Below, one piece after another: positions 1,369-19,394 of a stretch of 64,000 nt of DNA. The translations under genes were made by a program, and so were the position numbers. The stretch is from Burkholderia sp. NRF60-BP8 (lineage in GTDB: Bacteria; Pseudomonadota; Gammaproteobacteria; Burkholderiales; Burkholderiaceae), in NCBI RefSeq assembly GCF_001522585.2, contig NZ_CP013372.1, positions 1-64,000 on the forward strand, given 5' to 3'. Under the pieces are notes generated by a model, which was given only the letters and a program-made list of their open reading frames with translations, did not search any database and had not been told where the DNA came from. Every line of letters starts with the position of its first letter. Position 1 is the first letter of the stretch.

Positions 1369-1488
1369 ACGTCGGGTCGGAGGAGAAGTTTCCCGGAAGG
1401 ATAGCGCCTGCGGTGATGTGCGTCCAGAACGACATGCTCACCATAGCCGGTGAAGCGCGCCGGCAAAACGGCGCTCACCCGAAGCGCT

Positions 1489-4392: not shown

Positions 4393-4435
4393 GGTGAGAG
4401 GATCCGGGAAGCCAGCGGTGAGGATTTTCGGGAGC
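4393..4435 (-). repeat. Two inverted satellite iterons
   Basis: GGTGAGGATTTTCGGGAGC at 4417-4435 is the reverse complement of the origin iteron; GGTGAGAGGATCCGGGAA at 4393-4410 is a weaker copy. Both lie in the gap between the convergent kfrA and recombinase-like genes, 1.6 kb from the main array and in the opposite orientation. Confidence 0.75.
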
Positions 4436-4463
4436 TGTGAAAGGGTGAGGCTGCGCCACGCAA

Positions 4464-4495
4464 GGCTGCTCACGGATCGATCCGCGTGAGCAGCC
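4464..4495. terminator. Stem-loop between convergent kfrA and recombinase-like gene
   Basis: GGCTGCTCACG (4464-4474) pairs perfectly with CGTGAGCAGCC (4485-4495) around a 10-nt loop, followed by GTTTCC. Position between two convergent genes fits a bidirectional rho-independent terminator, although the T-run is short. Confidence 0.65.
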
Positions 4496-4503
4496 GTTTC
4501 CGA

Positions 4504-5523
4504 TCAGTGAGTTTCGTCGCGGTCGGACGCATCACCGCTGCTATCGGCCAGCCCGTCGCGCCAGTTTTTCCAGGCGCGATGCAGGCGATTCGACGAGATC
4601 GGCCGCATGAAGCCCAGCCATTTGCCTACGCGCTCGGGCGGCACGTCGTGCTCGAACAGTTCGGCCGCGTAGGTGTTGCGCAAGGTTTGCGGGCTTGCAC
4701 GCGCGGTGCGTGACGACGTGAGCCCGGCCGATTCGACGATCGCGTCGATCGCGCGCAGCATCGTCGCCTTGTGCATCGGCCGCCCGGCATGCGATGCGGG
4801 GAACACGAGCTCTCCCGGAATCTGCTGGCGTTTGCGTTCGGTGAGCCAGGCTTCGAGCAACGCGATCGCGAACGAGGCCAGATGGGTGTCGCGCGCGTAA
4901 TCCGGATGCGTCGACTCGATCCGCAGCGACGTCGTGCTCGTATTGATGCAACTAATCGTAAGTGCGCGCGCTTCTCCGGTTTTGATGCCGGCACCGAGAA
5001 ATGCGGCGACGAGCGCCCGGTCGCGACGTTCCTTCCAGTACGCGGAACCCGATACGCCGATTGGCGAAAACAGATACGCGAGCAACGTCGCGCGCTCCGC
5101 CGGCGTGAGGAAACCGGTCGGTTCGTTGTCGCGGGCCTTGCGCCAGTTCGCTTCGCCATCCTGAGCAATGAAGCGGGCCGGGTTGGTCGATGCGTACTCG
5201 GTGCGGCGGACATGATCGAGCACACGCTCGATCAGCCGAAGATAGCGCATCCGCTGCGTTTTCTTGATCGGCAACTCGCCGACGAAGTTCGCGATGGTCG
5301 GCGTATCGACCGTCGCCAGGTTCTTTTGATGTGCACGCATCCACGCGAGAAACGCGCCCCATTGTGCGCGATAGACATCGGCCGACGAGCGGCGATAGTC
5401 CTGCATGGCCAGCCACGCGTCGAACGCGGCTTCGGGCGAGACGACCCAGTCGGACGCATCGCGGTCGAACAGATCCTTTTCTTCCGGCGGGGCAGTGGTG
5501 TCGGGAGAGGCGGGAAGGGACAT
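4504..5523 (-). CDS. Tyrosine-recombinase-fold protein with degenerate active site
   Basis: 339 aa. Residues about 30-120 resemble the SAM-like core-binding domain of XerC/D and phage integrases; about 135-325 align with the catalytic domain. Aligning by motif to XerD, the first catalytic Arg (usual GLRxSE) is Lys181 in GIKTGEA; the HxxR His is Gln279 in SPQTLRNTY with Arg282 kept; the following His is Asn283; the LGH His is Phe305 in LGFMR; and the nucleophilic Tyr position is Leu314. Only one of the usual catalytic residues survives, so strand cleavage looks impossible by the known mechanism, yet the frame is full-length and uninterrupted. It reads towards the origin. A structural or DNA-binding role at the origin is possible. 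No strong Shine-Dalgarno precedes the ATG. Confidence 0.8.
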   Translation of the reverse strand: MSLPASPDTTAPPEEKDLFDRDASDWVVSPEAAFDAWLAMQDYRRSSADVYRAQWGAFLAWMRAHQKNLATVDTPTIANFVGELPIKKTQRMRYLRLIERVLDHVRRTEYASTNPARFIAQDGEANWRKARDNEPTGFLTPAERATLLAYLFSPIGVSGSAYWKERRDRALVAAFLGAGIKTGEARALTISCINTSTTSLRIESTHPDYARDTHLASFAIALLEAWLTERKRQQIPGELVFPASHAGRPMHKATMLRAIDAIVESAGLTSSRTARASPQTLRNTYAAELFEHDVPPERVGKWLGFMRPISSNRLHRAWKNWRDGLADSSGDASDRDETH

Positions 5524-5591
5524 GGTGTTAATTCCGTTAGTTGCGTATATGGTAGCCCTTTCCGCAACGTATCGGGCAGCAAGCGGGTGAG

Positions 5592-5615
5592 CCGGCCGCG
5601 GTGCGCCGCGGCCGG
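5592..5615 (-). terminator. Stem-loop after the SOS-box gene
   Basis: CCGGCCGCGG (5592-5601) pairs perfectly with CCGCGGCCGG (5606-5615) around a 4-nt loop, just downstream (on the minus strand) of the orphan gene ending at 5626. It probably separates that gene from the recombinase-like gene. No T-run, so confidence is moderate. Confidence 0.5.
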
Positions 5616-5625
5616 GGCTGGGCCA

Positions 5626-6003
5626 TCAGTCGCCCCACGCCTTGGTTTGGCGGTGAGCGCGCGCGGGACGCGCGGTATCGTGCGTCGTTGCCGCGGCTTC
5701 GTACGCGAGAACGGCGAACGAAAAGACCGCGGGCAACGCATTCGAGCGCCCGAAGTCGATCGGATCGTCCGTTTCGGGAAACGTCATGTCCGACGGCCGT
5801 TCGAACAGTTGACGCATGCCGGCGTCGTGCCGGCTGGCGAAGCCGAGATCGGCGAGCGCTTCGGCTTCGATCGCGTGCAGCAGGCGCCACGTCAGCGGCA
5901 CGCGCTGGCGGATGTAGCGCCCGGCGATATGGCGAACGATCAATTCGAGGTCGTGCGCGGCAGCCTTGAAGCTGAGCGCGGCCAAGTCTTGTTCTTCTGT
6001 CAT
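5626..6003 (-). CDS. Orphan small protein under a LexA box
   Basis: 125 aa; the ATG at 6003 is preceded by AGGAG. I do not recognise the family. The N-terminal half is helical with a basic patch (IVRHIAGRYIRQRVPLTWRL), followed by a middle section with SDMTFPETDD; the last 20 residues are Ala/Arg/Thr-rich and probably disordered. No signal peptide or transmembrane segment is seen. It lies alone between the recombinase-like gene and the XRE-cupin gene. Its promoter (TTGCGG, 17 bp, TACAGT) is overlapped by a consensus SOS box, so it should be repressed by LexA and induced by DNA damage. Function unknown; origin proximity suggests, but does not show, a replication or damage-response role. Confidence 0.75.
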   Translation of the reverse strand: MTEEQDLAALSFKAAAHDLELIVRHIAGRYIRQRVPLTWRLLHAIEAEALADLGFASRHDAGMRQLFERPSDMTFPETDDPIDFGRSNALPAVFSFAVLAYEAAATTHDTARPARAHRQTKAWGD

Positions 6004-6075
6004 TGCAGGCTCCTGTCGACCGGGGCGGGCGCCTCGGTGCGCCCGCCCCGGCCCTTGCATGGCGGAATGTCCGTT

Positions 6076-6105
6076 TACTGTACAAACATACAGTACTTTC
6101 CGCAA
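6076..6105 (-). promoter_or_regulatory. LexA (SOS) box overlapping a promoter
   Basis: TACTGTACAAACATACAGTA at 6076-6095 has the full CTGT-N8-ACAG core plus the flanking TA pairs of the enterobacterial SOS consensus. On the minus strand a TTGCGG -35 (6100-6105) and TACAGT -10 (6077-6082) are 17 bp apart, so the box overlaps the -10. The gene starting at 6003 is the only one correctly placed to be controlled. Confidence 0.85.
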
Positions 6106-6144
6106 CTGGCCTGCGATTGACCTTTTGGCTATCTATACGCGCCG

Positions 6145-6756
6145 TCAGCGATGTATCACGATCAACAAGGCCCGCGCTTCGGTCTTGCCGGGATTGCGGA
6201 TCGCATGCGGCTCGTCGGCCGGGTAGCGCGCGGTGTCGCCCGCCTTCAGGCGCCGGCTGGCCGCGGCGGCTTCGATTTCCATCGCGCCCTGCAGCACGGT
6301 GAGGTGCTCGCGCGTGCCGGGTTCGTGCGCGTTCGATACCAGTGCGCCGCCGCCCGGCAGCGTCAGTTCGTACCACTCGAACTTGCCGGCGAGGTCGATC
6401 GGGCCCCATACGCGCAACTGGTACCGGCCGTCGTGGCCCGCGAGCGTCGGAATGTCGTGCGGGCCGTCCACGCGGATCGTCTCGGGCGCCTTCGGTTGCG
6501 AGAACAGTTCGTCGAGCGTGATGCCGAGCGCGTTCGTCAGCCGCCACGCGACGGCGATCGTCGGGTTGGCCTTGTCGCGTTCGATCTCGGAGAGCATCGA
6601 TTTCGATACGCCGGCTGCGCGCGACAGGTCGTCGAGCGTCAGCTTGCGCTCGTTGCGCAGCCGCTGGATCTGCTCGCCCACGCGCGGCGGGGTCGCGGCC
6701 GGCGGCTGCGGGGCGGCGTCGGCGCGCGTGCGCCGCGATCCGGAGGAACTTGCCAT
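6145..6756 (-). CDS. XRE-family regulator with C-terminal cupin domain
   Basis: 203 aa. Residues about 28-85 are a Cro/CI-type helix-turn-helix (LTLDDLSRAAGVSKSMLSEI, then KANPTIAVAWRL); about 125-200 form a small cupin beta barrel that in this family binds an effector. The first 25 residues are a low-complexity Ala/Pro/Arg tail. It is divergent from kbl-tdh, and the shared upstream region holds a near-perfect 12-bp inverted repeat, so it probably controls threonine catabolism, itself, or both. The effector is unknown. Confidence 0.88.
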   Translation of the reverse strand: MASSSGSRRTRADAAPQPPAATPPRVGEQIQRLRNERKLTLDDLSRAAGVSKSMLSEIERDKANPTIAVAWRLTNALGITLDELFSQPKAPETIRVDGPHDIPTLAGHDGRYQLRVWGPIDLAGKFEWYELTLPGGGALVSNAHEPGTREHLTVLQGAMEIEAAAASRRLKAGDTARYPADEPHAIRNPGKTEARALLIVIHR

Positions 6757-6782
6757 TTGGATTCCGTTCGCTTAGAGTTGTT

Positions 6783-6812
6783 CGATATTTCGAATTCTCG
6801 TTCGGAATATCG
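6783..6812. promoter_or_regulatory. Inverted repeat between XRE-cupin gene and kbl
   Basis: CGATATTTCGAA (6783-6794) and TTCGGAATATCG (6801-6812) are inverted copies with one mismatch, 6 bp apart, immediately upstream of the XRE-cupin start at 6756 and about 100 bp before kbl. Likely operator of the XRE-cupin regulator. Confidence 0.55.
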
Positions 6813-6914
6813 GATAAATGCGGTCAACCGAACGACCGACTATAACAGTAGCAGGCCGCAGCGCCGCCACGAGCCGTGCGCTGCGGAATGCGAATCCCTG
6901 TCAGGAGCTTTGCG

Positions 6915-8114
6915 ATGCGTGATGCCTTTCTCGCCCAGGTGCGCGGGACGCTCGACCAGATCCGCGCGGACGGTTTTTACAAGACCGAGCGCGAGATCGC
7001 GAGTCCCCAGGCGGCAGCCGTGCGGCTCGCCGGCGGCGCCGGCGTGCTCAATTTCTGCGCGAACAACTATCTGGGTCTGGCGAACGATCCGCGCCTGATC
7101 GATGCGGCGAAAGCCGGCCTCGACCAGGACGGCTTCGGCATGGCATCGGTGCGCTTCATCTGCGGCACGCAAACCGTCCACAAGCAACTGGAAAGCGCGC
7201 TGGCCGCGTTTCTCGGCACCGAGGACAGCATCCTCTATTCGAGCTGCTTCGACGCGAACGGCGGGCTGTTCGAGACGCTGCTCGACGAGAACGACGCCGT
7301 GATCAGCGACGAGCTGAATCACGCGAGCATCATCGACGGCATTCGCCTGTGCAAGGCGAAGCGTCTGCGCTACAAGAACAACGATCTTTCCGACCTCGAG
7401 GCGAAGCTCAAGGAAGCCGACGCCGCGGGCGCGCGCCACAAGCTGATCGCGACCGACGGCGTGTTCTCGATGGACGGCATCATCGCCGATCTCAAAGGCA
7501 TCTGCGATCTCGCCGATCGCTACGGCGCGCTCGTGATGGTCGACGATTCGCACGCGGTCGGCTTCATCGGCACGCACGGCCGCGGCACGCCCGAGCACTG
7601 CGGCGTCGAAGGCCGCGTCGACATCGTCACGGGCACGCTCGGCAAGGCGCTCGGCGGTGCCTCGGGCGGCTATGTCGCCGCGCGTCGCGAGGTGATCGAG
7701 CTGCTGCGCCAGCGCTCGCGTCCCTATCTGTTCTCGAACACGCTCACGCCGAGCATCGCCGCGGCGTCGCTGAAGGTGCTGGAGCTGCTCGGCAGCGACG
7801 AGGGCGCGACGCTGCGCGAGCGTGTGCGCGAGAACGGCGCGCGGTTCCGCAAGCAGATGACCGAAGCCGGCTTCACGCTCGTGCCCGGCGCGCATCCGAT
7901 CATCCCGGTGATGCTCGGCGATGCCCAGCTCGCGACGAACATGGCCGACAAGCTGCTCGGCGAGGGCGTCTACGTGATCGGCTTCTCGTTCCCCGTCGTG
8001 CCGCGCGGCCGCGCGCGCATTCGCACGCAGATGAGCGCTGCGCATACGCCCGAACAGATTGACCAGGCGGTTGCCGCGTTCGTGCGCGTCGGCCAGTCGC
8101 TCGGCATCGTCTGA
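6915..8114 (+). CDS. kbl: 2-amino-3-ketobutyrate CoA ligase (glycine C-acetyltransferase)
   Basis: 399 aa, the usual length. PLP-dependent alpha-oxoamine synthase that converts 2-amino-3-ketobutyrate plus CoA to glycine and acetyl-CoA, the second step of threonine degradation. Visible family features: [11 protein letters not shown] near residue 50, [11 protein letters not shown] with the cofactor-ring Asp/His, and GTLGKALGG with the Schiff-base Lys. The ATG at 6915 is chosen over an upstream in-frame one at 6876 because it follows AGGAGCTTTGCG and matches the family N-terminus. tdh starts 13 bp after the stop, so the two form an operon. Confidence 0.97.
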
Positions 8115-8127
8115 CGGAGGCGCGACC

Positions 8128-9156
8128 ATGAAAGCACTGGCAAAGCTCGAACGCGGCCCCGGCCTCACGCTCACGCGCGTGAAGCGCCCCGAAGTCGGCC
8201 ACAACGACGTGCTGATCAAGATCCGCCGCACGGCGATCTGCGGCACCGATATCCATATCTGGAAGTGGGACGACTGGGCGCAGAAGACGATTCCGGTGCC
8301 GATGCACGTCGGCCACGAATACGTCGGCGAGATCGTCGAGATGGGGCAGGAAGTGCGCGGTTTCGCGATCGGCGATCGCGTGTCCGGCGAAGGTCACATC
8401 ACGTGCGGTTTTTGCCGCAACTGTCGCGCCGGGCGCCGGCATCTGTGCCGCAACACGGTGGGCGTCGGCGTGAACCGCGAAGGCGCGTTCGCCGAATACC
8501 TGGCGATTCCGGCGTTCAACGCGTTCAAGATTCCGCCGGAGATCTCCGACGATCTCGCGTCGATCTTCGATCCGTTCGGCAACGCGACGCATACGGCGCT
8601 GTCGTTCAATCTGGTCGGCGAAGACGTGCTGATCACCGGCGCGGGCCCGATCGGCATCATGGCCGTCGCGATCGCGAAGCACGTCGGCGCGCGCAACGTC
8701 GTCATCACCGACATCAACGACTATCGGCTTTCGCTCGCGCGCAAGATGGGCGCGACGCGCGCGGTCAACGTCGCGCGCGAGTCGCTGCGCGACGTCATGG
8801 CCGACCTGCACATGACCGAAGGCTTCGACGTCGGTCTCGAGATGTCCGGCGTGCCGAGCGCGTTCACGAGCCTGCTCGAGGCGATGAATCACGGCGGCAA
8901 GGTCGCGCTGCTCGGCATCCCGCCCGCGCAGACGGCGATCGACTGGAATCAGGTGATCTTCAAGGGGCTCGAGATCAAGGGCATCTACGGCCGCGAAATG
9001 TTCGAGACCTGGTACAAGATGGTCGCGATGCTGCAAAGCGGCCTCGACCTGTCGCCGATCATCACGCATCGCTTCGCGGCCGACGACTACGAGCAAGGCT
9101 TCGCCGCGATGCTGTCCGGCGAAAGCGGCAAGGTGATTCTCGACTGGACGGTCTGA
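8128..9156 (+). CDS. tdh: L-threonine 3-dehydrogenase
   Basis: 342 aa zinc-dependent medium-chain dehydrogenase oxidising L-threonine to 2-amino-3-ketobutyrate with NAD+, feeding Kbl. The catalytic zinc ligand motif [13 protein letters not shown], the GHEYVGE motif, the structural-zinc cysteines in [15 protein letters not shown], and the GAGPIGIMA nucleotide-binding loop are all present. The ATG at 8128 follows GGAGG and gives the standard N-terminus MKALAKLE. Second gene of the kbl-tdh operon, followed by a strong stem-loop. Confidence 0.97.
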
Positions 9157-9169
9157 GCCGCGTGTCGAG

Positions 9170-9204
9170 ACGGGGCAGCGCGGCGCATTCGCCGCCTGCC
9201 CCGT
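9170..9204 (+). terminator. Terminator stem-loop after tdh
   Basis: ACGGGGCAG (9170-9178) pairs with CTGCCCCGT (9196-9204), and inside it GCGGCG with CGCCGC around CATT, with a single bulged C: about 15 bp of stem just 13 bp after the tdh stop, followed by GTTCGTTCG. Confidence 0.7.
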
Positions 9205-9683
9205 GTTCGTTCGTACGCGCACCGTCGAACCTCGGAAGCGCGATTCGACGCTTGAGGTGAGAATATTCGGGAGCCGTGTCTGCGCGCCGAATCGCCAGAC
9301 GATCCCACGTCGGTGACGGGTAATGGCACGTTCGCTTCACCTGTCGACACGCGCGCCGCTCGTTTCCGTCACGCCATTCGGCGCCCGTTTCTCCTCTTCC
9401 GCACCCTCCCCCGCTTCGCTTGGCGTGCGAGCGCTCGCATGCCACCGTGTGCGATATCGTGCCGATCCGGCACATCGACCGTGAGTCGCACGCAGCGTCG
9501 CGACTCACTGATGCACGATGCGATCGACATCGGTCGATCTCGATCGGTGCGTAGACCGCTACCTGGTCCGTTCACCCTTCGCTCCGCAGTGTCGGGCCGA
9601 GGGCTCGACTTGACGCGCCGGCGCGTCGGCCACGATTCGCCCCTCCCACCGGCAGGGCCATTTCATCCGGGTATTGACGACGG
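9205..9683. other. Non-coding gap holding one satellite iteron
   Basis: About 480 bp between the tdh terminator and the TetR operator. It contains one iteron-like site (9256-9275). The open frames crossing it show no recognisable protein features. Nothing else was identified. Confidence 0.5.
9256..9275 (-). repeat. Inverted satellite iteron
   Basis: GGTGAGAATATTCGGGAGCC is the reverse complement of the origin iteron (core CCCGAATATTCTCACC), 6.5 kb from the array and inverted relative to it. Confidence 0.7.
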
Positions 9684-9702
9684 AGAACGATCGTTCTACC
9701 GT
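9674..9702 (+). promoter_or_regulatory. Promoter with TetR-type palindrome
   Basis: AGAACGATCGTTCT (9684-9697) is a perfect 14-bp palindrome 11 bp before the TetR start. A TTGACG -35 (9674-9679) lies 17 bp from a weak -10 (TACCGT, 9697-9702), so a bound repressor would cover the promoter. Likely autoregulation. Confidence 0.6.
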
Positions 9703-9708
9703 AAACCC

Positions 9709-10314
9709 ATGAACACATCTCCCGACACCTCCGGCGAACCCAGCGTTCGCGACCGGCTGCTCGACGCGGCCGAAGCGCTGATCTATTCGGGCGGCATCCA
9801 TGCGACGGGCGTCGATGCGATCGTCAAGCGATCCGGTGCGGCACGAAAGAGCTTTTATTCGCATTTCGAATCGAAAGAGGCGTTGGTGGTCGCCGCGCTC
9901 GAACGTCGCGACGAGCGCTGGATGCGCTGGTTCGTCGACGCCACGCTGGCGCGCGGCAAGGCGCCGCGCGCGCAGCTGCTCGGCATGTTCGACGTGCTGC
10001 GCGACTGGTTCGGGCAGCCCGACTTTCACGGCTGCGCGTTCCTGAATGCGTCAGGCGAGATACCCGACGCCGACGATCCCGTGCGCGTCGTCGCCCGCAT
10101 GCACAAGGCGCGCCTGCTGGCGTTCGTGCGCGAGCGCTTCGACGCCCTTGCCGATGAAACCGGCATCGAGCGCCGCGGGCTCGCACGCATCGCGCGTCAG
10201 TGGCTCGTGTTGATCGACGGCGCGATCGGCGTGGCGCTCGTCAGTGGCGATGCAAACGCCGCGCGCGATGCGCGCGCGACGGCTGAACTGCTGCTCGATA
10301 CCGTATCGCGGTAG
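9709..10314 (+). CDS. TetR/AcrR-family transcriptional regulator
   Basis: 201 aa from the ATG at 9709, chosen because it begins the canonical N-terminal helix (VRDRLLDAAEALIYSGG) right after an operator-like palindrome; upstream frame extension is non-coding. The helix-turn-helix is GVDAIVKRSGAARKSFYSHF with the trailing KEALV. The C-terminal ligand domain is not diagnostic. The DUF1348 gene follows 63 bp downstream on the same strand and is the likely target along with the gene itself. Confidence 0.88.
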   Translation: MNTSPDTSGEPSVRDRLLDAAEALIYSGGIHATGVDAIVKRSGAARKSFYSHFESKEALVVAALERRDERWMRWFVDATLARGKAPRAQLLGMFDVLRDWFGQPDFHGCAFLNASGEIPDADDPVRVVARMHKARLLAFVRERFDALADETGIERRGLARIARQWLVLIDGAIGVALVSGDANAARDARATAELLLDTVSR

Positions 10315-10377
10315 CCGACGCAGCGAATCCACCCGGCTGCGTGCATGCGCAGCCCGAACCCTGAACAGGAGCAACCC

Positions 10378-10857
10378 ATGTCCGCTTCCCCCGAAGTTCG
10401 TCCGCCCGTTCCGCCGTTCACGCTCGAAACGGCGCGCCAGAAGGTGCGCGCCGCCGAGGACGCATGGAACACGCGCGACCCGCAACGCGTGTCGCTCGCC
10501 TATACGCCGCAAAGCCGCTGGCGCAATCGCGCGGAGTTCGTGACGGGCCGCGACGAGATCGTCGGGCTGCTGCAGCGGAAGTGGACGCGCGAACTCGACT
10601 ACCGCCTGATCAAGGAGCTGTGGGCGTTCGGCGGCAACCGCATCGCGGTGCGCTTTGCGTACGAGTGGCATGACGATGCGGGCAACTGGTTCCGTTCGTA
10701 CGGCAACGAGAACTGGGAGTTCGATGAAAACGGCCTGATGGCGCATCGTCACGCGAGCATCAACGATCTGCCGATTCGCGAGGCGGACCGTCTTTATCGC
10801 TGGCCGCTCGGCCGTCGTCCGGACGATCATCCGGGACTGTCCGACCTCGGGCTGTGA
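10378..10857 (+). CDS. DUF1348 (NTF2-like) protein
   Basis: 159 aa, full length for the family. SnoaL/NTF2-like alpha+beta fold with the DUF1348 hallmarks [26 protein letters not shown] and [23 protein letters not shown]. The ATG at 10378 follows AGGAGCAACCC. Function of the family is unknown; TetR-DUF1348 pairs are common in proteobacteria, suggesting substrate-controlled expression. It converges on dmlA across a gap with two iteron-like sites. Confidence 0.85.
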
Positions 10858-10905
10858 TGCGCGTCTGCGTTCGACGGATCGACGAACGCATCGGCCGGAT
10901 TCAAT

Positions 10906-10953
10906 GGTGAGGAAATTCGGGAGCCGGCCGCCGAAGGTGAGATTTTTCGGGAC
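10906..10953 (-). repeat. Two inverted satellite iterons
   Basis: GGTGAGGAAATTCGGGAGCC (10906-10925) and AAGGTGAGATTTTTCGGGAC (10934-10953), 29-30 bp apart, both reverse complements of the origin iteron. The second core, CCCGAAAAATCTCACC, is identical to the origin copy at 2157-2172. Confidence 0.85.
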
Positions 10954-11335
10954 GAGGTGAAATGTCGCGTCGAGCTGTGTGCGTTGAACAGATCGACGCG
11001 ACATCGCACGAGTCAAGCGATGCATGCGTCGGAGTGTTGCGGTGTGCTTCCCTGCGCGATGCATCTCACCGATCGCGCCGAAGCGATCGTGCATCGACGA
11101 TCGGTGTGGGCGAGCGCGCCGTGCAACTCACCGATCGGATCGTCCTTCGACTTTCAAGGAACAACCTCACGAGCCGTGCGCGTTGCGATGTGCCGTTGCT
11201 CACCGTTGGATATCACCGCCGACGCATCGGCGGCATCCGCACAAGTGCGTAACCGCATCGCGTGTCGCTCACCGCAGACGGGTTCTCGAGCGCCGTGCAG
11301 CGCTGCCCCGCGCGAACGCCGGGCGCGCCCCTCAC
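10954..11335. other. Non-coding gap with spaced CTCACC words
   Basis: About 380 bp between DUF1348 and dmlA ends with no supportable gene. It holds GCATCTCACCGATCG (11061-11075) and GCAACTCACCGATCG (11123-11137), 14/15 identical and 62 bp apart, and further CTCAC words near 11165, 11198 and 11268. They lack the CCCG half of the iteron. Confidence 0.4.
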
Positions 11336-12421
11336 TCACCCCGCAATCCGCGCGGCGATCGCCTCGCCCACTTCCTGCGTGCCCGCGTGGCCGCCGAGAT
11401 CGCGCGTCCGCGGCCCCGTGCGCAGCACGTCCTCGATCGCGGCGACGATCGCATCGTGCGCGTCGCGCTCGCGGCCCGTACCGTTACCGAGGAAGTCGAG
11501 CATCATCGCGGCCGACCAGATCATCGCGATCGGGTTCGCGATGTACTGCCCCGCGATGTCGGGCGCCGAACCGTGCACGGGTTCGAACAGCGACGGGAAC
11601 GTACGGTCGGGGTTCAGGTTCGCCGACGGCGCGATGCCGATCGTGCCCGTACAGGCCGGCCCGAGATCCGACAGGATGTCGCCGAACAGATTCGATGCGA
11701 CGACGACGTCGAAGCGATCCGGCTGCAGGACGAATCGCGCACACAGGATGTCGATGTGCTGCTTGTCGACCGCGATCTCCGGATAGCGTTCGGCCATCTC
11801 GGCCGCGCGCGCATCCCACCACGGCATGCTGATCGCGATGCCGTTGCTTTTCGTCGCGACGGTGACGCGCTTCGCGCGCCGCTGCGCGAGCTCGAACGCG
11901 AATTTCAGCACGCGCTCGGTGCCGTGCCGCGTGAAGATCGACTGCTGCATCACGACTTCGCGCTCGGTGCCTTCGAACATCGTGCCGCCGACCGACGAAT
12001 ATTCGCCCTCGGTGTTCTCCCGCACGATCATGAAATCGATGTCGCCCGCGCGGCGGCCGGCGAGCGGTGACGGTACGCCGTCGAACAGGCGCGCGGGCCG
12101 CAGGTTGATGTACTGGTCGAATTCGCGGCGGAATTTCAGCAGCGAGCCCCACAGCGAAATGTGATCGGGCACCGTCGCCGGCCAGCCGACCGCGCCGAAC
12201 AGGATCGCATCCATGCCCGACAGTTGCGCTTTCCAGTCGTCCGGCATCATCGTGCCGTGCTGCGCGTAGTAGTCGCAGCTCGCCCAGTCGATCTCGACGA
12301 AGTCGAAACGCACGCCGAAGCGCGCGGTCACGGCGTCGAGCACGCGCAGGCCCTCGGGCATCACTTCGCGGCCGATGCCGTCGCCGGGGATCACGGCAAT
12401 CCTGTAAGTCCTGTCGGTCAT
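11336..12421 (-). CDS. dmlA: D-malate/tartrate dehydrogenase (decarboxylating)
   Basis: 361 aa, the same length as E. coli DmlA. Member of the isocitrate/isopropylmalate dehydrogenase family that oxidatively decarboxylates D-malate (also tartrate or isopropylmalate in relatives) to pyruvate with NAD+. Seen: AVIPGDGIGREVMPEGLRVL at the N-terminus, the VRENTEGEYSSVGG segment, and the metal-binding SNLFGDILSDLG. AAGGAG precedes the ATG. It is divergent from a DmlR-like LysR gene, which supports D-malate as substrate. TtuC-type tartrate dehydrogenase is the alternative name. Confidence 0.9.
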   Translation of the reverse strand: MTDRTYRIAVIPGDGIGREVMPEGLRVLDAVTARFGVRFDFVEIDWASCDYYAQHGTMMPDDWKAQLSGMDAILFGAVGWPATVPDHISLWGSLLKFRREFDQYINLRPARLFDGVPSPLAGRRAGDIDFMIVRENTEGEYSSVGGTMFEGTEREVVMQQSIFTRHGTERVLKFAFELAQRRAKRVTVATKSNGIAISMPWWDARAAEMAERYPEIAVDKQHIDILCARFVLQPDRFDVVVASNLFGDILSDLGPACTGTIGIAPSANLNPDRTFPSLFEPVHGSAPDIAGQYIANPIAMIWSAAMMLDFLGNGTGRERDAHDAIVAAIEDVLRTGPRTRDLGGHAGTQEVGEAIAARIAG

Positions 12422-12536
12422 GCAAATCTCCTTGGCTGTTCGGCCGGCTGTCGGGAAGGCAGCGGCCCGTCACGCCATTCTATTTATTTCCATATGGATT
12501 AAAATCGCGCAAAAGTTAATCGACTTTCCACGAATC

Positions 12537-13460
12537 GTGAATAAATCGCCGAACCTCGACGATCTGCGCGTGTTCAGCGTGGTCGTCCGCCTCGCGAGCT
12601 TCAGCGCGGCCGCCGAGCAGCTCGCGGTGTCGCCCGCGTACGTCAGCAAGCGCGTCGCGATGCTCGAGGCGCAGCTCGGCACGCGCCTGCTGCATCGATC
12701 GACACGCCGCATGACGGTCACCGAAGCCGGCGAACGCGTGCTCGCGCGCGCCGAAAAGATTCTCGACGACGTCGATCATCTCGTCGAGGACGTGTCGACC
12801 ACGCGCACGGTGCCGCGCGGCACGCTGCGCATGTCGAGCAGCTTCGGCTTCGGCCGGCACGTCGTCGCGCCGGCGCTGCTCGACTTCAGCGCGCGCTATC
12901 CGCAACTGAACGTGCGGCTCGATCTGTTCGACCGGCTCGTCGATGTTGCCGGCGAAGGCTACGACCTCGACGTGCGCATCGGCGACGAGATCGCCGATCA
13001 TCTGATCGCGCGCCGCCTTGCGGCGAACCATCGCGTGCTGTGTGCGTCGCCCGACTATCTCGCCCGCCGCGGGACGCCGCGCTCGCTCGCGGATCTGGCC
13101 TCGCACGACTGTCTCGCGATCAAGGAGCGCGATCATCCGTTCGGCGTATGGCGACTGAACGTGCGCGGCGAAACGGCGACGGTGAAGGTCGGCGGCGCGC
13201 TGTCGACGAACCATGGCGAGGTGGCCGTGCAATGGGCGCTGGCCGGGCGCGGCATCGTGCTGCGCTCGATCTGGGAGGCCCGGCCGCTGATCGAGGGCGG
13301 CGCATTGTGCCGCGTGCTGCCGGATGCGATCCAGCCCGCGAACATCTGGGCCGTGTATCCGGAACGCGTCGCGGCGTCGGCGAAGGTGCGTGTGTGCGTG
13401 GATTTTCTGGTGGAGGCGCTGGCCGGCCTGGATGCCGCCGCGGGTGACGATACGGCCTGA
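12537..13460 (+). CDS. dmlR: LysR-family activator, DmlR-like
   Basis: 307 aa from the GTG at 12537, equal to the length of E. coli DmlR. The DNA-binding helix-turn-helix (SFSAAAEQLAVSPAYVSKRV, followed by LHRSTRRMTVTEAGE) is very close to my memory of DmlR. The C-terminal two thirds form the periplasmic-binding-protein-like effector domain. Earlier ATG starts would add 39 residues lacking family similarity. Divergent from dmlA; expected to activate dmlA in response to D-malate. Confidence 0.88.
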   Translation: MNKSPNLDDLRVFSVVVRLASFSAAAEQLAVSPAYVSKRVAMLEAQLGTRLLHRSTRRMTVTEAGERVLARAEKILDDVDHLVEDVSTTRTVPRGTLRMSSSFGFGRHVVAPALLDFSARYPQLNVRLDLFDRLVDVAGEGYDLDVRIGDEIADHLIARRLAANHRVLCASPDYLARRGTPRSLADLASHDCLAIKERDHPFGVWRLNVRGETATVKVGGALSTNHGEVAVQWALAGRGIVLRSIWEARPLIEGGALCRVLPDAIQPANIWAVYPERVAASAKVRVCVDFLVEALAGLDAAAGDDTA

Positions 13461-13468
13461 AATCGGCT

Positions 13469-13490
13469 AAAGGTGAGCTTTTACGGGGGC
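13469..13490 (-). repeat. Inverted satellite iteron
   Basis: AAAGGTGAGCTTTTACGG followed by GGGC; reverse-complement core CCCGTAAAAGCTCACC with the TTT tail of the origin repeats. It lies between the dmlR stop and the terminator palindrome, 10.7 kb from the main array. Confidence 0.75.
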
Positions 13491-13493
13491 GTG

Positions 13494-13519
13494 CGCAGGC
13501 ACCGTCGACGGTGCCTGCG
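13494..13519. terminator. Bidirectional terminator palindrome between dmlR and argC
   Basis: CGCAGGCACCGTC (13494-13506) and GACGGTGCCTGCG (13507-13519) form a perfect 26-bp palindrome between the convergent dmlR and argC genes, 6 bp from the argC stop. Confidence 0.7.
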
Positions 13520-13525
13520 GGCGCA

Positions 13526-14467
13526 TCACGCCGCGTGTCGCGCGCCGAGCATCAAGTCGAGATTCTGCACGGCGGCGCCGGATGCCCCTTTGCCGAGATT
13601 GTCGAACACGGCGGACAGCAGCACCTGGGTGCCGTCTGCGTTGACGAACACGCCGAGCCGCAGATCATTGGTGCCGTTCAACGCTTGCGGATCGAGATGC
13701 GTTGCCGCGCGTGCGTCCGCGAGCGGCATCACGTCGACGTGACGCGCATCCGCGTAGTGATGCGCGAGACAGGCATGCAACCGCTCGCCCGTCACCCCGG
13801 CCGGCAGCAGGCGCAGCTCGATCGGGATGGTGAGCACGATGCCTTGCCGATAGGCACCGTAGGCCGGCACGAAGAACGGGCGGTGCGCGAGCCCCGCGTG
13901 CTGCCGGATCTCGGGCACGTGCTTGTGCTCGAGAGCGAGGCCGTAGACCTGCAGCGGCAACGCGCGTGCGGCGGCGTCGCCCGCTTCGAATGCATCGACG
14001 GCGGCCCGCCCGCCGCCCGAATAACCGGACACCGCATGGATGCTCACCGGGTAGTCGCGCGGCAGCAGCCCTGCCTGCAGGAGCGGGCGAAGCAGGCCGA
14101 TCGCGCCCGTCGGATAGCAGCCCGGATTGGTCACGCGCTTCGCCTGCGCAATGTGTCGCGCCTGTCCGTCGGCCATCTCGGGGAAGCCGTAGACCCATTC
14201 GGGTTGCGTGCGGTGAGCTGAACTGGCGTCGATCACGCGTACTGCCGGATTCCGGATGAAGCCGACCGCTTCGCGCGCGGCCGCGTCGGGCAGGCACAGG
14301 ATCGCGATATCGCACGCGTTGAGTGCGTCGGCGCGCCGCGCGGGGTCCTTGCGTTCGGCGGCGGGAAGCGTGAGCAGCCGCACGTCGGTGCGCTCGCGCA
14401 GACGCGCGTGAATCTGCAACCCGGTCGTGCCCTGGTCGCCGTCGATGAAGATGGTGGGGAAGCGCAT
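13526..14467 (-). CDS. argC: N-acetyl-gamma-glutamyl-phosphate reductase, type 2
   Basis: 313 aa, the short type-2 AGPR form. NADPH-dependent reduction of N-acetylglutamyl phosphate in arginine synthesis. Visible: [13 protein letters not shown] nucleotide loop, the catalytic-cysteine motif [18 protein letters not shown], and the [11 protein letters not shown] segment. No other arginine genes are nearby; a LysR gene is divergent from it. It may be a second argC, with the housekeeping copy elsewhere. Confidence 0.93.
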
Positions 14468-14533
14468 GATGGTCGTGTTCGTCGCGTTCGGTCGTCGGGG
14501 GAAACCGTATCGTCCACCGAACGCCTAGAATAG

Positions 14534-14571
14534 GAAAAGTTGAATTTGCTGATCGTCCGATTCAGCTTTTC
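14534..14571. promoter_or_regulatory. Inverted repeat in argC/LysR intergenic region
   Basis: GAAAAGTTGAAT (14534-14545) and ATTCAGCTTTTC (14560-14571) are inverted copies with one mismatch, 14 bp apart, between the divergent argC and LysR starts. The spacing suits a LysR-type dimer-of-dimers site. Confidence 0.5.
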
Positions 14572-14588
14572 TGAACGAGAGGTGTGTG

Positions 14589-15473
14589 ATGCGCGAGATC
14601 AGTCTGGACCGCCTGCGTACGCTGGTCGCGATCGCGGACCAGGGCTCCTTCGTGGCGGCGGCGCAATGGCTTCATCTCGCCCCGCCGACCGTCAGCCTGC
14701 ATGTCGCCGAGCTGGAAAGCCGCGTCGGCGCGCCGCTGCTGTCGCGTACCCGCGGCAACGTGCGCCCGTCCGTGATCGGCGAAGTGCTGGTGGAGCGGGC
14801 GCGGCGTCTGCTGGCGGAAGTCGAATCCACGCTGGACGACGTGCAGCGACAGGTGCAGGGATTGACCGGGCGCGTACGCCTCGGCGCATCGACCGGGGCG
14901 ATCGCGCATCTGTTGCCGCAGGCGGTGGCCGGATTGCGCGCACAGCATCCGGATATCGATGTGCAGATCGCGGTGCTCACGTCGCACGACACGCTGTCGC
15001 GGATTGCACAAGGCACGCTCGATGTCGGGTTGGTCGCGCTGCCGCAAGCGCCGGTCGCGGGGCTGACGATCCGCCCGTGGCGCCGCGATCCGGTGATGGC
15101 TTTCCTGCCCGCGGACTGGCCGCTTCCGGCCCGGGTGACGCCCGCGTATCTGGCCGCGCGGCCGCTGATTCTCAACGATGCGACGACGCGCCTGTCGCGG
15201 CTCACGACCGAATGGTTCGCGCTCGGCGGCCACCGGCCCGAGCCGCGGATCGCGCTCAACTACAACGATGCGATCAAGAGCCTGGTCGCCGCAGGTTACG
15301 GCGCGACGCTGCTGCCGCACGAGGCAGGCGCCCCGTTGCCGGATGCGCGCATCGTCATGCGGCCGCTACGCCCGGCGTTGTGGCGCGAGTTGGGGATTGC
15401 CCATCGAGCAGGCCCGGTCGAACGGGCGACGCAGCACGTGCTCGATGCGCTGCGGGCGCTCGGCGCGCGATAG
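14589..15473 (+). CDS. LysR-family transcriptional regulator
   Basis: 294 aa from the ATG at 14589 (a GTG one codon earlier is also possible); GAGAGG lies 7-12 bp upstream. N-terminal winged helix-turn-helix (SFVAAAQWLHLAPPTVSLHV, then PLLSRTRGNVRPS), central coiled linker, and a C-terminal effector domain. Divergent from argC with an inverted repeat between them, so argC is the likely target. Effector unknown. Confidence 0.88.
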   Translation: MREISLDRLRTLVAIADQGSFVAAAQWLHLAPPTVSLHVAELESRVGAPLLSRTRGNVRPSVIGEVLVERARRLLAEVESTLDDVQRQVQGLTGRVRLGASTGAIAHLLPQAVAGLRAQHPDIDVQIAVLTSHDTLSRIAQGTLDVGLVALPQAPVAGLTIRPWRRDPVMAFLPADWPLPARVTPAYLAARPLILNDATTRLSRLTTEWFALGGHRPEPRIALNYNDAIKSLVAAGYGATLLPHEAGAPLPDARIVMRPLRPALWRELGIAHRAGPVERATQHVLDALRALGAR

Positions 15474-15514
15474 CGGGTCGTCGCGCGGCTGGGCCGTGCG
15501 GCCCGCACGCGCGT

Positions 15515-15979
15515 TCAGAGCCGGTTGTCCTTCGCGAGCATCAGCACGCGCGCCCAGCGCTGCGCATCGCGCTTGTCCATCATCGGCAGCTTCCATTCGC
15601 CGCGCACGGCGTCGCGCACGCGCACGACGAGATGCCAGCGGCCGTCGATCGGCGCGGCCTCGCAACCGTCGAGCTGCGACAGCGTATAGCGGCCGTCCGC
15701 GCCGTCATGCGACAGCCACAGCAGCCCTTGCGTCGCGGACACGCGCAACTCGCCCCATGCGCGATGCACGATATGCGTCCAGCCTTGTTCCTTCGTGTTC
15801 GGTGCGATGTCGCGGCGGCGCTTGAGCCACCATGCGATCAGTGCGATCAGGAGCGCGGCGGCCAGCACGGCGGCCGCGATCGCGACCGGCTGGCCGAACT
15901 GCGCGGCGATGACGTGAAACAGGTGAACGGCGCCCCATCCCAGGGCGATGAGCGCGAATAGCGCAATGAAAATCGGCAT
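15515..15979 (-). CDS. Membrane-anchored hypothetical protein
   Basis: 154 aa from the ATG at 15979, which is preceded by AGGAGG too far upstream to be ideal. Two hydrophobic segments (about residues 1-20 and 27-50) are followed by a basic WLKRRRD stop-transfer and a soluble domain of about 100 residues rich in Trp, with DGRYTLSQLDGCEAAP and GRWHLVVRVRD. The soluble part resembles PH-like or DUF-type membrane-associated domains, but I cannot name it. It lies downstream of the patatin gene beyond a strong stem-loop. Confidence 0.65.
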   Translation of the reverse strand: MPIFIALFALIALGWGAVHLFHVIAAQFGQPVAIAAAVLAAALLIALIAWWLKRRRDIAPNTKEQGWTHIVHRAWGELRVSATQGLLWLSHDGADGRYTLSQLDGCEAAPIDGRWHLVVRVRDAVRGEWKLPMMDKRDAQRWARVLMLAKDNRL

Positions 15980-15997
15980 GTCGAATCGGAAAGGAGG

Positions 15998-16028
15998 ACG
16001 GGCCGGCGCATGCAGCGCGCCGGCCCGT
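15998..16028 (-). terminator. Terminator stem-loop after patatin gene
   Basis: ACGGGCCGGCGC (15998-16009) pairs perfectly with GCGCCGGCCCGT (16017-16028) around a 7-nt loop, 12 bp after the patatin stop. Confidence 0.65.
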
Positions 16029-16039
16029 TGCACACGGCA

Positions 16040-17257
16040 TTACCGGCGGCGGTGAATGTCGTGCGTGACGAAGCCCGCGTCGTTGACGGGCAGCGCGAGG
16101 CCGTCCTTCACCGCGAGCGTCTTGCGGATGTCGTCGAGACCCGCGGACCAGTGGTCGCGCATCGTCGACAGACCGAACTGATAGTCCTTGTAGTGATGCT
16201 CGTACGCTTTCTGCTGATAGATCAGATGCTGGATGTTGTACTTCTTCCCGCTCGACATCTCTTCGGCCTCGACGCACCACGGGTCGTTCTTGCGCTGCTC
16301 TTCCGGCACCTGGTCGAGCACGTGGCGCAGCACGTTGCGGTAGCGCTGTTCGCGCTGCAGCGTATCGGTGACGAAACGCGTGCGGCTCGAATACTGCACG
16401 TCCTTCGTGCGCTCGGCGACGTCGGCCATCGTGCGCGGCAGCGGCCCGCGCGCGCTCCACAGATCGACCTGGAACGCGAGCGTGTCGCGGCGCGGCCGGG
16501 CGCGGAGTACTTCCATCAGCGGCGTGTTCGACACGACGCCGCCGTCCCAGTAGTACTCGCCGTCGATCTCGACGGGCGGGAACGCGGGCGGCAACGCACC
16601 GGACGCCATGAAATGCTCGGGCGCGAGACGGATGCGCGAGTTGTCGAAGTACACGAAGTTGCCGGTGCCGACGTTGACCGCGCCGACCGACACGCGCGTC
16701 TCGCCCGAATTGATCCGGTCGAAGTCGCACAGTTTCAGCAGCGTCGTGCGCAGCGCCGACGTGTCGTACCAGCTGATTTTTTCCGGATGGTCGGACACGC
16801 CGGGCAGCGGCGGCGGAAAGCGCGGCACGAAGAAGCCCTGCTGGCCCTGCATCATCGCGCTGGCGGCCTGCGACGCGGTGAAGAACGTGCGGATTTGATC
16901 GATGCTGTTGAACAGCGCGAATTCGAACGCGGCCGGAATCGCCGGAAAGAACGCCGGCTGGCAGATCGTTTCCCAGAATTCGCGCAGGCGCTCGACGCGA
17001 TGCTCGGGCGCGTTGCCGGCGATCAGCGCGGTATTGAGCGCGCCGATCGAGATGCCCGCGATCCAGTCGAGCGGAATGCCTGCTTCATGCAGCCCTTCGA
17101 ATACGCCGGCCTGATACGCGCCGAGCGCGCCGCCGCCTTGCAGGACGAGCGCGATCGTTTCGTACGGCAGCGACCGCGCAGCGGCCGGCGCACCGGCTTC
17201 GTGGTGCAGGTCCGCCGCATCGACGGCCTGCTTTTCTGTACGCGCGTGCGGTTTCAT
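16040..17257 (-). CDS. Patatin-like phospholipase with DUF3734-type C-terminus
   Basis: 405 aa. Serine hydrolase with a Ser-Asp dyad: oxyanion loop LVLQGGGALGAYQAGVFEGL, nucleophile elbow GISIG, and the Asp motif DGGVVSN. The last 70 residues (YEHHYKDYQFGLSTMRDHW) match the C-terminal domain often fused in Burkholderia/Ralstonia patatins. GGAG precedes the ATG. It follows bdhA and adc on the same strand; this trio occurs in polyhydroxybutyrate-producing betaproteobacteria, so a role in PHB-granule or lipid turnover is plausible but unproven. Confidence 0.88.
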   Translation of the reverse strand: MKPHARTEKQAVDAADLHHEAGAPAAARSLPYETIALVLQGGGALGAYQAGVFEGLHEAGIPLDWIAGISIGALNTALIAGNAPEHRVERLREFWETICQPAFFPAIPAAFEFALFNSIDQIRTFFTASQAASAMMQGQQGFFVPRFPPPLPGVSDHPEKISWYDTSALRTTLLKLCDFDRINSGETRVSVGAVNVGTGNFVYFDNSRIRLAPEHFMASGALPPAFPPVEIDGEYYWDGGVVSNTPLMEVLRARPRRDTLAFQVDLWSARGPLPRTMADVAERTKDVQYSSRTRFVTDTLQREQRYRNVLRHVLDQVPEEQRKNDPWCVEAEEMSSGKKYNIQHLIYQQKAYEHHYKDYQFGLSTMRDHWSAGLDDIRKTLAVKDGLALPVNDAGFVTHDIHRRR

Positions 17258-17339
17258 CAGTTGCTCCGAGAAATCCCGCCGTGGACGGCGGTGATGGAGG
17301 GCGTGGCGTCGATCGCCGACGGCACGCCATCGCAGGAAT

Positions 17340-17368
17340 GACGGCGGCGCGGAAAAGCGCCTGCCGTC
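17340..17368 (-). terminator. Imperfect stem-loop between bdhA and patatin gene
   Basis: GACGGC near 17340 pairs with GCCGTC near 17368, with an inner GCGC/GCGC pairing around GGAAAA, in the 126-bp gap after bdhA. It may attenuate rather than stop transcription into the patatin gene. Confidence 0.4.
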
Positions 17369-17383
17369 GGGGAAGCGTCGGCG

Positions 17384-18169
17384 TTACTGCATGAACCAGC
17401 CGTGGCTGACGATGAACGACTGGCCCGTGAGCGCGGCGCTCGGGAATGCCGACAGGAACAGCACCGTCTGCGCGACGTCCTGCACCGTCGTGAACACGCC
17501 GTCGACCGTGTTGCCGAGCATCACCTTCTTGATCACTTCCTCTTCGCTGATGCCGAGCTCCTTCGCCTGCTCCGGAATCTGCTTGTCGACCAGCGGCGTG
17601 CGCACGAAGCCCGGACACACGACGTGCGAGCGCACGTTGTGCTTCGCGCCTTCCTTCGCCAGCACGCGCGCCAAGCCGAGCAGCCCGTGCTTGGCCGTCA
17701 CGTACGCCGACTTCAGCGGCGACGCTTCGTGCGAGTGCACCGAGCCCATGTAGATCACGACGCCGCCGCGATCGTCCTTGTACATGTGCTTGAGCGCGGC
17801 CTTCGTCGTCAGGAACGCGCCGTCCACGTGGATCGCCTGCATCTTCTTCCAGTCGGAGAACGAATAGTTCTCGATCGGGTTGACGATCTGGATACCGGCG
17901 TTCGACACGAGGATGTCGATCGAGCCGAACGCTTCGGCCACCTTGTCGATGCCGGTGTTCACGGCTTCCTCGCTGGTCACGTCCATCGCGACGCCGATCG
18001 CCTTGCCGCCTGCCTTGTTGATCTCGTCGGCGACCGCGTTCGCGCCGTCCTGGTTCAGGTCGGCGATCGCGACGGCCGCGCCTGCCTTGGCCAGCTCCAG
18101 CGCGATTTCCTTGCCGATGCCGCTCGCGGCGCCCGTGACGACGGCGGTCTTGCCATTCAGGTTGCTCAT
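17384..18169 (-). CDS. bdhA: 3-hydroxybutyrate dehydrogenase (SDR)
   Basis: 261 aa short-chain dehydrogenase interconverting (R)-3-hydroxybutyrate and acetoacetate with NAD+. Seen: [15 protein letters not shown] cofactor loop, NAGIQ, and the catalytic YVTAK with the preceding Ser. The [13 protein letters not shown] and C-terminal SHGWFMQ segments are typical of bacterial 3-HBDH. The product acetoacetate is the substrate of adc, whose gene ends 51 bp upstream, so the two form an operon. Confidence 0.93.
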
Positions 18170-18220
18170 GTTCGAATTCCCGTGGTGAAAGGATTGACAG
18201 GGAGAAGGACTACGGACGTG

Positions 18221-18961
18221 TTACTGGGCCAGGTAATCGTAGACGACTTCGCCGAGGCCCAGCGTCAAATCCGCGACGAGGTGGCGCGCTTCGACGATCT
18301 CGAGCACGGGCAGATCGGCCACCGGCGCGAGCGCGTGCGGCGCCAGCTCGAGCGATGCGGGGCCCGTCCACGCGCCCTTCATCTTGATGTCCTGCATGTA
18401 ATAGCGCACCAGTTCGCAGACGCGTGCGGTGCCGTCGACGTGCGGGATGATCTTCAGCAGGAAATTGGGGCCGGCGAGCCGCTTCGTCTGCTCGTCGATG
18501 TCGAGCTCCTTGTGCTTGTAGCCCATCGTGCCGGTCGCGACGCGCACCTTGCCGTAGTCGAGCGTGCCCAGGATGTGATCGGTGTTCACGTGCAGCGTGG
18601 GCGACGCGAGCTTCTTCGGGAAGCCCCACAGCTCGCGGCCGCCGGCGATCGGCGGGTGATCGTCGAGATACATCGCCAGCGTATAGCCGCCCGCCTGGCC
18701 GTTGTATTCGACGGGGATCACCTGGCCGCTTTCGGTGTAATCGCCGAAGCCGGTCGAATCGGCCATGCGGATGAATTCGTAATGCACGAGCGGCTCGGTG
18801 ACCTGCAGCGGCTCGGGGACGATTTCGCGGAGGCGGTCCGGATCGGTGCGGTACGTGATGATCAGAAACTCACGATCGACGAAACGGTACGGGCCCATCG
18901 GGAACGCAGGGCTGGTCAACGGCATCGCAAACGCTTTCGATCGGACATCGCTGGGTTTCAT
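18221..18961 (-). CDS. adc: Acetoacetate decarboxylase
   Basis: 246 aa. Cytoplasmic enzyme that decarboxylates acetoacetate to acetone and CO2 through a Schiff base. The catalytic region ELWGFPKK has adjacent lysines 116/117, matching the Lys115/116 pair of the clostridial enzyme. The ATG at 18961 is chosen because AAGGAG lies 6 bp before it and the upstream extension is low-complexity. First gene of the adc-bdhA-patatin operon. Confidence 0.94.
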
Positions 18962-19394
18962 GCGGACTCCTTGTTGTTGATCGCTTCGTGGATGAGTGGT
19001 CGTAATCGTATGCCTGTGCGTTGCCGTTGTGCGATGCCGCATCTGGAATTAATTGTTGCCGATTTCGAATAATTCGACGCGTAAATATTGAGATGAACGA
19101 TGCAAACGGCCTGACGGCACGCCGGCCGGGCGATGGTGGCACGTGTCGATGACGCCATCATGTGAAAAAGGTGAGCCTTTACGGGAGGCGTGGTGAGCTT
19201 TTACGGGGACGTTCGCGCGGCAATATGACAATTGTGTGAACTTGTGTTGCAGTGCAGGCTCTAAGTGCGTTCACCGCTCGGCCTTGGTTCGAGCGGCTGC
19301 CGCGTTAAGCATCGCTTAAGCGGCCACGCCCTAGCATTCGTTCGCCTCCGGCCGGGCAACCGGCCGATCTTTTACGCGCCACGCAACCGGATTC
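18962..19394. other. Gap between adc and PAP2 gene
   Basis: About 430 bp upstream of two divergent genes. It holds AT-rich promoter-like sequence near 19040-19100 and two inverted satellite iterons (19167-19210). No supportable gene. Confidence 0.5.
19167..19210 (-). repeat. Two inverted satellite iterons, the most distant seen
   Basis: AAAGGTGAGCCTTTACGGGA (from 19167) and GGTGAGCTTTTACGGGGAC (19192-19210), about 23 bp apart. Reverse-complement cores are CCCGTAAAGGCTCACC and CCCGTAAAAGCTCACC; the latter equals the core at 13.47 kb. They lie 16.4 kb from the origin array; I found none further right. Confidence 0.78.

Follow-up and report, generated by a model that had tools for sequence, protein, structure and literature searches.

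Why should a secondary chromosome keep copies of its origin repeats many kilobases outside the origin? Burkholderia sp. NRF60-BP8 poses this question in the first 64 kb of contig NZ_CP013372.1 (assembly GCF_001522585.2; this whole stretch of 64,000 nucleotides is 'the window' below). There, the gene for a replication initiator, rep, lies beside a cluster of direct repeats, or iterons, and eight further copies of the same motif—satellites, as we call them—are scattered within 17 kb. An initial annotation of this stretch pointed out the eight and likened them to the extra-origin initiator sites of Vibrio chromosome 2. This is still the best reading of them, for they are real, intergenic, conserved and on the initiator's own replicon, but they are not the whole system: a tandem array and three inverted sites lie on the other arm of the chromosome, and a pair of similar sites lies at the origin of a third replicon. 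The system is real and conserved and, to judge from its sequences, probably functional. We consider it fairly likely that the satellites, the array and the three inverted sites are binding sites of the chromosome 2 Rep3 initiator outside its origin, and act as a reservoir for negative control.

Iterons beyond the origin

The genome that was scanned comprises 7.08 Mb in three contigs: C1 (2,801,147 bp, of which the window is the start), C2 (3,427,375 bp) and C3 (851,421 bp). From their sizes, their Rep genes and their match to the published iteron consensus sequences, we take C1 to be Burkholderia chromosome 2 (chr2), C2 chromosome 1 (chr1) and C3 chromosome 3 (chr3). The rep gene (1..1368, minus strand) encodes a chr2 replication initiator of 455 amino acids (aa) of the Rep3 winged-helix family (Pfam Rep3_N 3.6e-12, Rep3_C 7.7e-10); its single match in the PDB is a weak one, to the PI protein (2nra, E 0.0073). 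Beside it lie 18 direct iteron copies on the plus strand (1487..2796; cores 1489–2793), found by core search and weight matrix, whose start-to-start spacing varies irregularly from 22 to 257 bp. The initial annotation saw this cluster but put its number at about 20. A Rep3 initiator gene beside clustered direct repeats of about 17–22 bp is the arrangement of an iteron-type Rep3 replicon.

The window was searched in two ways, with the core CCCGAAAANNCTCACCT at up to four mismatches, and with a 22-bp weight matrix built from the 18 origin copies. Both recover all eight satellites, at starts one or two bases from those first reported. With the cut-off set at 13 bits, the only matches of the matrix in the window are the 18 origin copies and the eight satellites; the stretch from 19.3 to 64 kb is empty of them, as had been noticed. 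All eight score above 16 bits (16.5–30.8). Neither chance nor base composition accounts for them, and in this too the initial annotation judged correctly: first-order Markov simulation predicts 0.48 matches above 13 bits per 64 kb, and 60 column-permuted matrices, run on positions 4301–64000, averaged 0.48 matches and never exceeded 4, against eight for the real matrix.

The satellites form five clusters, all on the minus strand. Pair A (4392–4408 and 4416–4432, spacing 24 bp) lies between convergent kfrA-like and integrase genes; satellite B, a single site (9255–9271), in the gap between two tandem genes, for an alcohol dehydrogenase (ending at 9156) and a TetR protein; pair C (10905–10921 and 10935–10951, spacing 30 bp) between convergent DUF1348 and Iso_dh genes; satellite D, again single (13471–13487), between convergent LysR (ending at 13460) and semialdehyde-dehydrogenase-like (ending at 13526) genes; and pair E (19169–19185 and 19191–19207, spacing 22 bp) upstream of an acetoacetate decarboxylase gene (18221–19042, minus). 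Three of the five clusters, A, C and D, thus sit between convergent genes, and no Pfam-supported gene contains a satellite; the earlier description of the sites as intergenic, and often so placed, holds good. So, within the window, does its statement that every satellite is inverted relative to the origin (8/8 minus, against 18/18 origin copies plus). Orientation alone, however, is weaker evidence than was first held, because the minus strand is favored in the background as well. Permuted matrices place 57% of their matches on it in Burkholderia flanks and 55% in those of other genera, and sub-threshold matches are skewed the same way (170 minus vs 69 plus in the simulation-stage scan; 79 minus and 22 plus in Burkholderia, and 27 minus and 20 plus in other genera, in the permuted-matrix comparison). 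The eight satellites, moreover, are just five clusters passed down jointly, which lowers the weight of the orientation count.

Across the whole genome, exact matches to CCCGWAAANNCTCACC number 19, all on C1: ten in the origin, five among the window satellites, three in the array and one in a satellite of the array. The scan found none on C2 or C3. A survey of the whole replicon and of the others had been suggested at the outset, and its outcome is that exact matches occur at a few chr2 loci and nowhere else. Allowing one mismatch raises the total to 30 (13 in the origin, six window satellites, four in the array cluster, three inverted sites beside the array, and four elsewhere), and allowing two raises it to 84, vs 28 for the control, the pattern read backwards. 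Of the four elsewhere, two lie next to each other on C3, one is on chr1, and the last falls in a coding sequence 12 kb to the left of rep. We rejected the last of these, C1:2789273, as a satellite; it lies inside a squalene/phytoene-synthase-like frame (motif SVRIFGMP, by eye), and it is seen in 14/14 relatives examined, being weaker in this genome.

The array lies about 141 kb left of rep (G000:C1:2659486-2659760) and consists of 12 units with a period of 23 bp, in the origin's own orientation. Eleven units score above 9 bits and follow one another in 23-bp steps with one step of 45 bp; a degenerate twelfth, counted by eye, fills that gap. Beside it, the one-mismatch core search finds three inverted sites (C1:2662660-2662998). 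The array's neighbors are a reading frame without a family match and a convergent acetyltransferase-type gene. With the array included, 18 sites at the origin compare with about 23 others on chr2 (8 + 12 + 3, one array unit being the one counted by eye).

Conservation and its limits

Rep is present in all 61 Burkholderia genomes searched, and the satellites accompany it. Right flanks were fetched from 46 of the 60 other genus genomes, wherever the contig allowed, and all 46 have minus-strand satellites, 331 sites above 13 bits in all. Plus-strand sites number 62, but 60 of them fall within the longer origin that seven of the genomes have, and 2 are left. Beyond the first pair the count is 241 minus vs 2 plus, and in the fetched origins 723 plus vs 5 minus.

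Conservation among relatives was a test proposed from the start, and the sites pass it well, their cores being kept while their flanks drift. In a canonical-layout set of 40 loci, window included, pair A has both sites above 12 bits in 37, the spacing being 24 bp in 37/37, and the other three keep one site. Pair E is found in 34, at 22 bp in 34/34; of the other six loci, L072, L085 and L107 are cut by a contig end, whereas in L084, L094 and L100 the 20 kb fetched do not contain it. Pair C, with a looser spacing of 27–33 bp, is found in 37; among the three loci without it, L107 is cut by the contig end and L084 has a 29-bp pair beyond the search range. Over 32–37 aligned loci per cluster, relatedness uncorrected, columns conserved to at least 95% make up 97/128 of the cores and 114/910 of the flanks. 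Each cluster shows this difference: pair A (core 22/32, flanks 38/182), satellite B (12/16 and 11/180; 32 loci), pair C (26/32 and 9/188), satellite D (13/16 and 11/180; 37 loci) and pair E (24/32 and 45/180). Distances between clusters differ among relatives, yet the sites stay. The stretch right of pair E is broadly similar in most relatives.

The array is similarly persistent. One of its inverted neighbors has the identical 16 bases in 40/61 genus genomes. We fetched 20 of those 40 loci, the exact match at this site being the basis of selection, and found the array in 19; the 20th locus is truncated at a contig end. All three inverted sites are present in 20/20, one of the three being the selection criterion itself. 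In the mean of the 19 arrays, the units at either end score high (28.0 and 28.9 bits) and those between them low (16.3), a pattern clear in most. In NRF60-BP8 the inner units are mostly without the A-tract but, by eye, keep CCCG and CTCACC in phase. Two units in 23-bp phase were also sought in a genome collection, and 53 stretches matched. Thirty-three come from 32 Burkholderia contigs, all 32 of which have at least three matches; five, with one match each, come from Caballeronia (four by name) or 'Burkholderia sp. Leaf177'; and the remainder are one Janthinobacterium bin and 14 scattered stretches (13 with one match, one with two). Among the remaining 21 genus genomes, the check for counterparts of the array covered G006 and G034. 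Each has an apparent one (G006:C2:250321-254743 and G034:C2:1893256-1897602), with the same spacings of 22 and about 301 bp but few strong units; these lie about 250–275 kb from the origin, the one in G006 mirrored, on the opposite arm. In another observation at the array locus, an H-NS-family gene (L004:1001-1306, minus) ends directly beside one inverted site (L004:979-1306).

The motif also keeps to the initiator's replicon in relatives. An exact-match scan took in 26 genomes, and in the four for which full lists were drawn up the Rep-bearing replicon holds 17/17 matches (G011), 17/17 (G001, where one match is remote from the origin), 18/21 (G025) and 21/23 (G023). With one mismatch allowed, the figures are 27/27 and 29/35 in two Burkholderia (G006 and G034), and 23/23, 18/18 and 31/34 in three members of other genera (G102, G104 and G108).

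In the wider family, Rep is found at E <1e-60 in 34/80 genomes. Right flanks were scanned in 22 of the 23 other-genus genomes whose Rep is 78–92% identical, and a minus-strand site occupies the position of pair A, about 2.9–3.5 kb from the rep start, in 19 of the 22; in 11 of these it is one of two sites 24 bp apart. All three exceptions belong to genus g8 and have reduced genomes. In genus g10 a plus-strand site follows about 90 bp past the minus-strand site at this position, and farther out the other genera together have 49 minus vs 26 plus. As a general rule, then, the inversion put forward by the initial annotation fails, given these counts and the orientation of the array. A general mechanical need for inversion is unlikely, and inversion is probably not essential: other genera have sites in both orientations, the array runs the same way as the origin copies, and DNA of kilobase length is flexible.

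Genus g8 is instructive in another way. Some members have genomes of 1.1–1.2 Mb and a Rep-bearing contig of only 61–72 kb. Three of these contigs (C2 of G087, G126 and G067) were scanned completely, and have no site above 13.3 bits outside the origin; they keep their origin iterons, all on one strand. In a fourth genome, G117, 20 of 67 kb were scanned, and the sites there, five in number, are all on the origin side. Eight satellites, meanwhile, are present in a sister whose Rep-bearing contig measures 790 kb. Loss of satellites from small, plasmid-sized replicons fits a role tied to replicon size.

Several observations weigh against reading the sites as a conserved control system. Exact matches stray onto other replicons in some relatives, 3/21 in G025 and 2/23 in G023. 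Past pair A, the positions of the sites differ between genera. Two genomes of other genera whose Rep is 39% identical, G076 and G095, show no clear inverted satellite set in the 20 kb scanned. And the satellite loss in g8 is weak evidence of purpose, because reduced genomes lose many sequences.

What the sites might do

Motif identity and the conservation footprint of the cores suggest that Rep binds the extra sites as it would the origin, and from this a simple mode of control would follow. At the fork speed measured in B. cenocepacia, 33 kb/min (PMC4948915), the satellites would be copied within about half a minute of initiation, and the array after about 4 minutes. Such early doubling would soak up free Rep, for which about 23 extra sites might provide a large sink, and Rep may also bridge the extra sites to the origin iterons (handcuffing). 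By titration, and perhaps handcuffing, the origin would be kept from firing a second time in the same cycle. Titration alone and bridging by Rep look the same at the level of sequence.

There is precedent. In V. cholerae, sites outside the origin of chromosome II (chrII) bind and titrate its initiator, RctB, and inhibit replication (PMC3937223), and two further papers add functional precedent in Vibrio (PMC6090056, PMC11711613). Chr2 of NRF60-BP8 resembles chrII in having the plasmid-type initiator of a secondary chromosome and, on the same replicon and near the origin, origin-type sites outside it. It differs in its initiator and iteron, in having eight satellites within 17 kb and a 12-unit array on the other arm, and in the pair at a third replicon's origin. 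Plasmid P1 and related iteron plasmids offer another parallel. Their control iterons, of the incA type, lie outside the origin but close to it, and restrain replication by titration and handcuffing; the extra sites of chr2, in contrast, lie up to about 140 kb away, scattered among chromosomal genes. The datA locus of E. coli likewise gathers initiator sites at a distance from the origin and holds initiation back; it promotes hydrolysis of DnaA-ATP (PMC3937223). The initiator differs, being DnaA there and Rep3 here.

We know of no counterpart of the datA reaction for Rep3 initiators.

Four other explanations deserve attention. The one we would take most seriously, while thinking it unlikely, is structural: Rep might bridge satellites, array and origin to fold the origin region, as a loop anchor or origin domain, with any effect on copy number being indirect. 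The sites do reach from about −142 kb on one side of the origin to +19 kb on the other, RctB has been seen to bridge sites within ori2 into loops (Niault et al., PMC11711613), and the fixed pair spacings of 22, 24 and about 30 bp may reflect assemblies of fixed geometry. Sequence does not separate such folding from handcuffing, but 12 tandem units are not obviously needed to anchor a loop. Quite improbable is that Rep acts at these sites as a transcriptional regulator or roadblock for neighboring genes. Pair E, upstream of a gene, would suit this role, but three of the five clusters, and apparently the array too, lie between convergent frames, away from promoters, and the sites persist though the distances between clusters vary.

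That some other protein, such as KfrA or a nucleoid protein, binds the motif and works at the origin as well is very improbable. A kfrA-like gene does adjoin the origin (3187..4368, plus; Pfam KfrA_N 6.1e-20 on the longer frame 3013–4368, the ATG at 3187 being our choice), and an H-NS-family gene lies beside one array site. Eighteen copies next to rep are, however, the usual layout of an iteron and its Rep, and the motif tracks the initiator, because origins with a diverged Rep carry different iterons: TCCCTGNNNNNNCTCACC in G076 and G095, and another in chr3, whose Rep is 35% identical to that of chr2. We give least credence to the idea that the sites are decayed remnants of former origin duplications or rearrangements, retained by chance. 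The array and some satellites could stem from copied origin iterons, and the inner array units are degenerate, but the cores are far better conserved than their flanks in the 32–37 loci per cluster, and the pair spacing is exact. A reservoir of initiator sites for negative control remains the account that we favor.

How new is this? Not wholly, although the initial annotation knew of no such device on a Burkholderia secondary chromosome. Du et al., in 2016, named the c2 and c3 iterons and gave the c2 consensus as ctCCCGAAAAacCTCACCTtt; the legend of their S1 Table mentions c2 iterons elsewhere in the genome, among them another cluster that lies 140 kb from the origin in the anticlockwise direction, and says that reversed iterons are marked (PMC4948915). 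That second cluster, in B. cenocepacia J2315, is very probably the same array as the one described here, and some of the satellites may be listed already in the table. The legend speaks of other iterons throughout the genome, whereas in NRF60-BP8 exact matches occur only at a few chr2 loci. The supplementary mention, in the portion available, gives no function, conservation or chr3 pair, and the terms 'titrat' and 'handcuff' are absent from the main text. A literature search in which most subscription journals were not covered turned up nothing further in print on initiator sites beyond the chr2 origin of Burkholderia, and no published experiment on inhibition by extra copies of them. As far as these sources extend, then, the satellite system was known from one published hint, and the chr3 connection was not found in print. 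A Hi-C study reports that in Burkholderia cepacia the chr2 origin contacts a large part of chr1, and that replication of third replicons in Burkholderia is complete before that of the chromosome (PMC13342612). Mechanistic understanding of copy control in multi-chromosome bacteria comes mainly from V. cholerae, according to one paper (PMC11711613). The eight satellites, the array with its three sites and the chr3 pair now supply exact, conserved DNA targets, through which titration, handcuffing and control between replicons could be tested directly in another large multi-chromosome group.

The other two chromosomes

Chr3 has an iteron of its own, of the TCCCATAA type, beside its Rep gene; the published c3 consensus is tCCCATAAacggntACCtnt (PMC4948915). 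The two adjacent C3 sites found with the chr2 core lie 1.7 kb from the chr3 initiator gene (G000:C3:673499-673546; L006:9499-9546), 32 bp apart. They are of the chr2 type: the chr2 matrix gives them 28.1 and 24.9 bits, the chr3 matrix 8.1 and 4.7. Among the chr3 origins of 20 chosen relatives, 13 have such a pair, spaced 33–34 bp, one has a single site, and six have none. When 14 sequences are aligned, conservation is concentrated mainly in the two cores and the remainder drifts; a weaker third CTCACC and, upstream, a short ACGTGA-like stretch can also be seen. The converse search, with the chr3 matrix, found no chr3-type site above 12.2 bits in the window.

Might the chr2 initiator control chr3 too? 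It is possible, though on balance doubtful, that the pair gives chr2 Rep a way to sense chr3 replication or to gate it; this is the boldest reading offered here. If such control exists, the pair would join two plasmid-derived chromosomes in a cross-replicon link, in addition to the control of chr2 by its own satellites and array. The chr3 iteron type has inverted copies of its own, in or beyond the origin (L006:9002, 9043 and 9942), and minus-strand chr3-type copies above 11 bits, one or more, are present in all 20 relatives.

Vibrio has, in addition, the crtS site on chromosome I, for which we found no convincing counterpart on chr1 of Burkholderia. The candidate was a block, CCCGTAAAATCTCATC, at G000:C2:1232697 (L008:6693-6740). 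It occurs exactly in 26/61 genus genomes and is invariant in 26/26 aligned loci, these having been chosen by exact match to part of it, but it scores only 10.9 bits. At up to three mismatches it is present in 6/6 Burkholderia and 0/74 other-genus genomes. As an analogue of crtS it is a lead but does not convince, being confined to Burkholderia among these 80 family genomes and situated 130–180 bp upstream of the small RNA ncS54 (RF02871). More likely, it is a control region of the ncS54 gene, instead.

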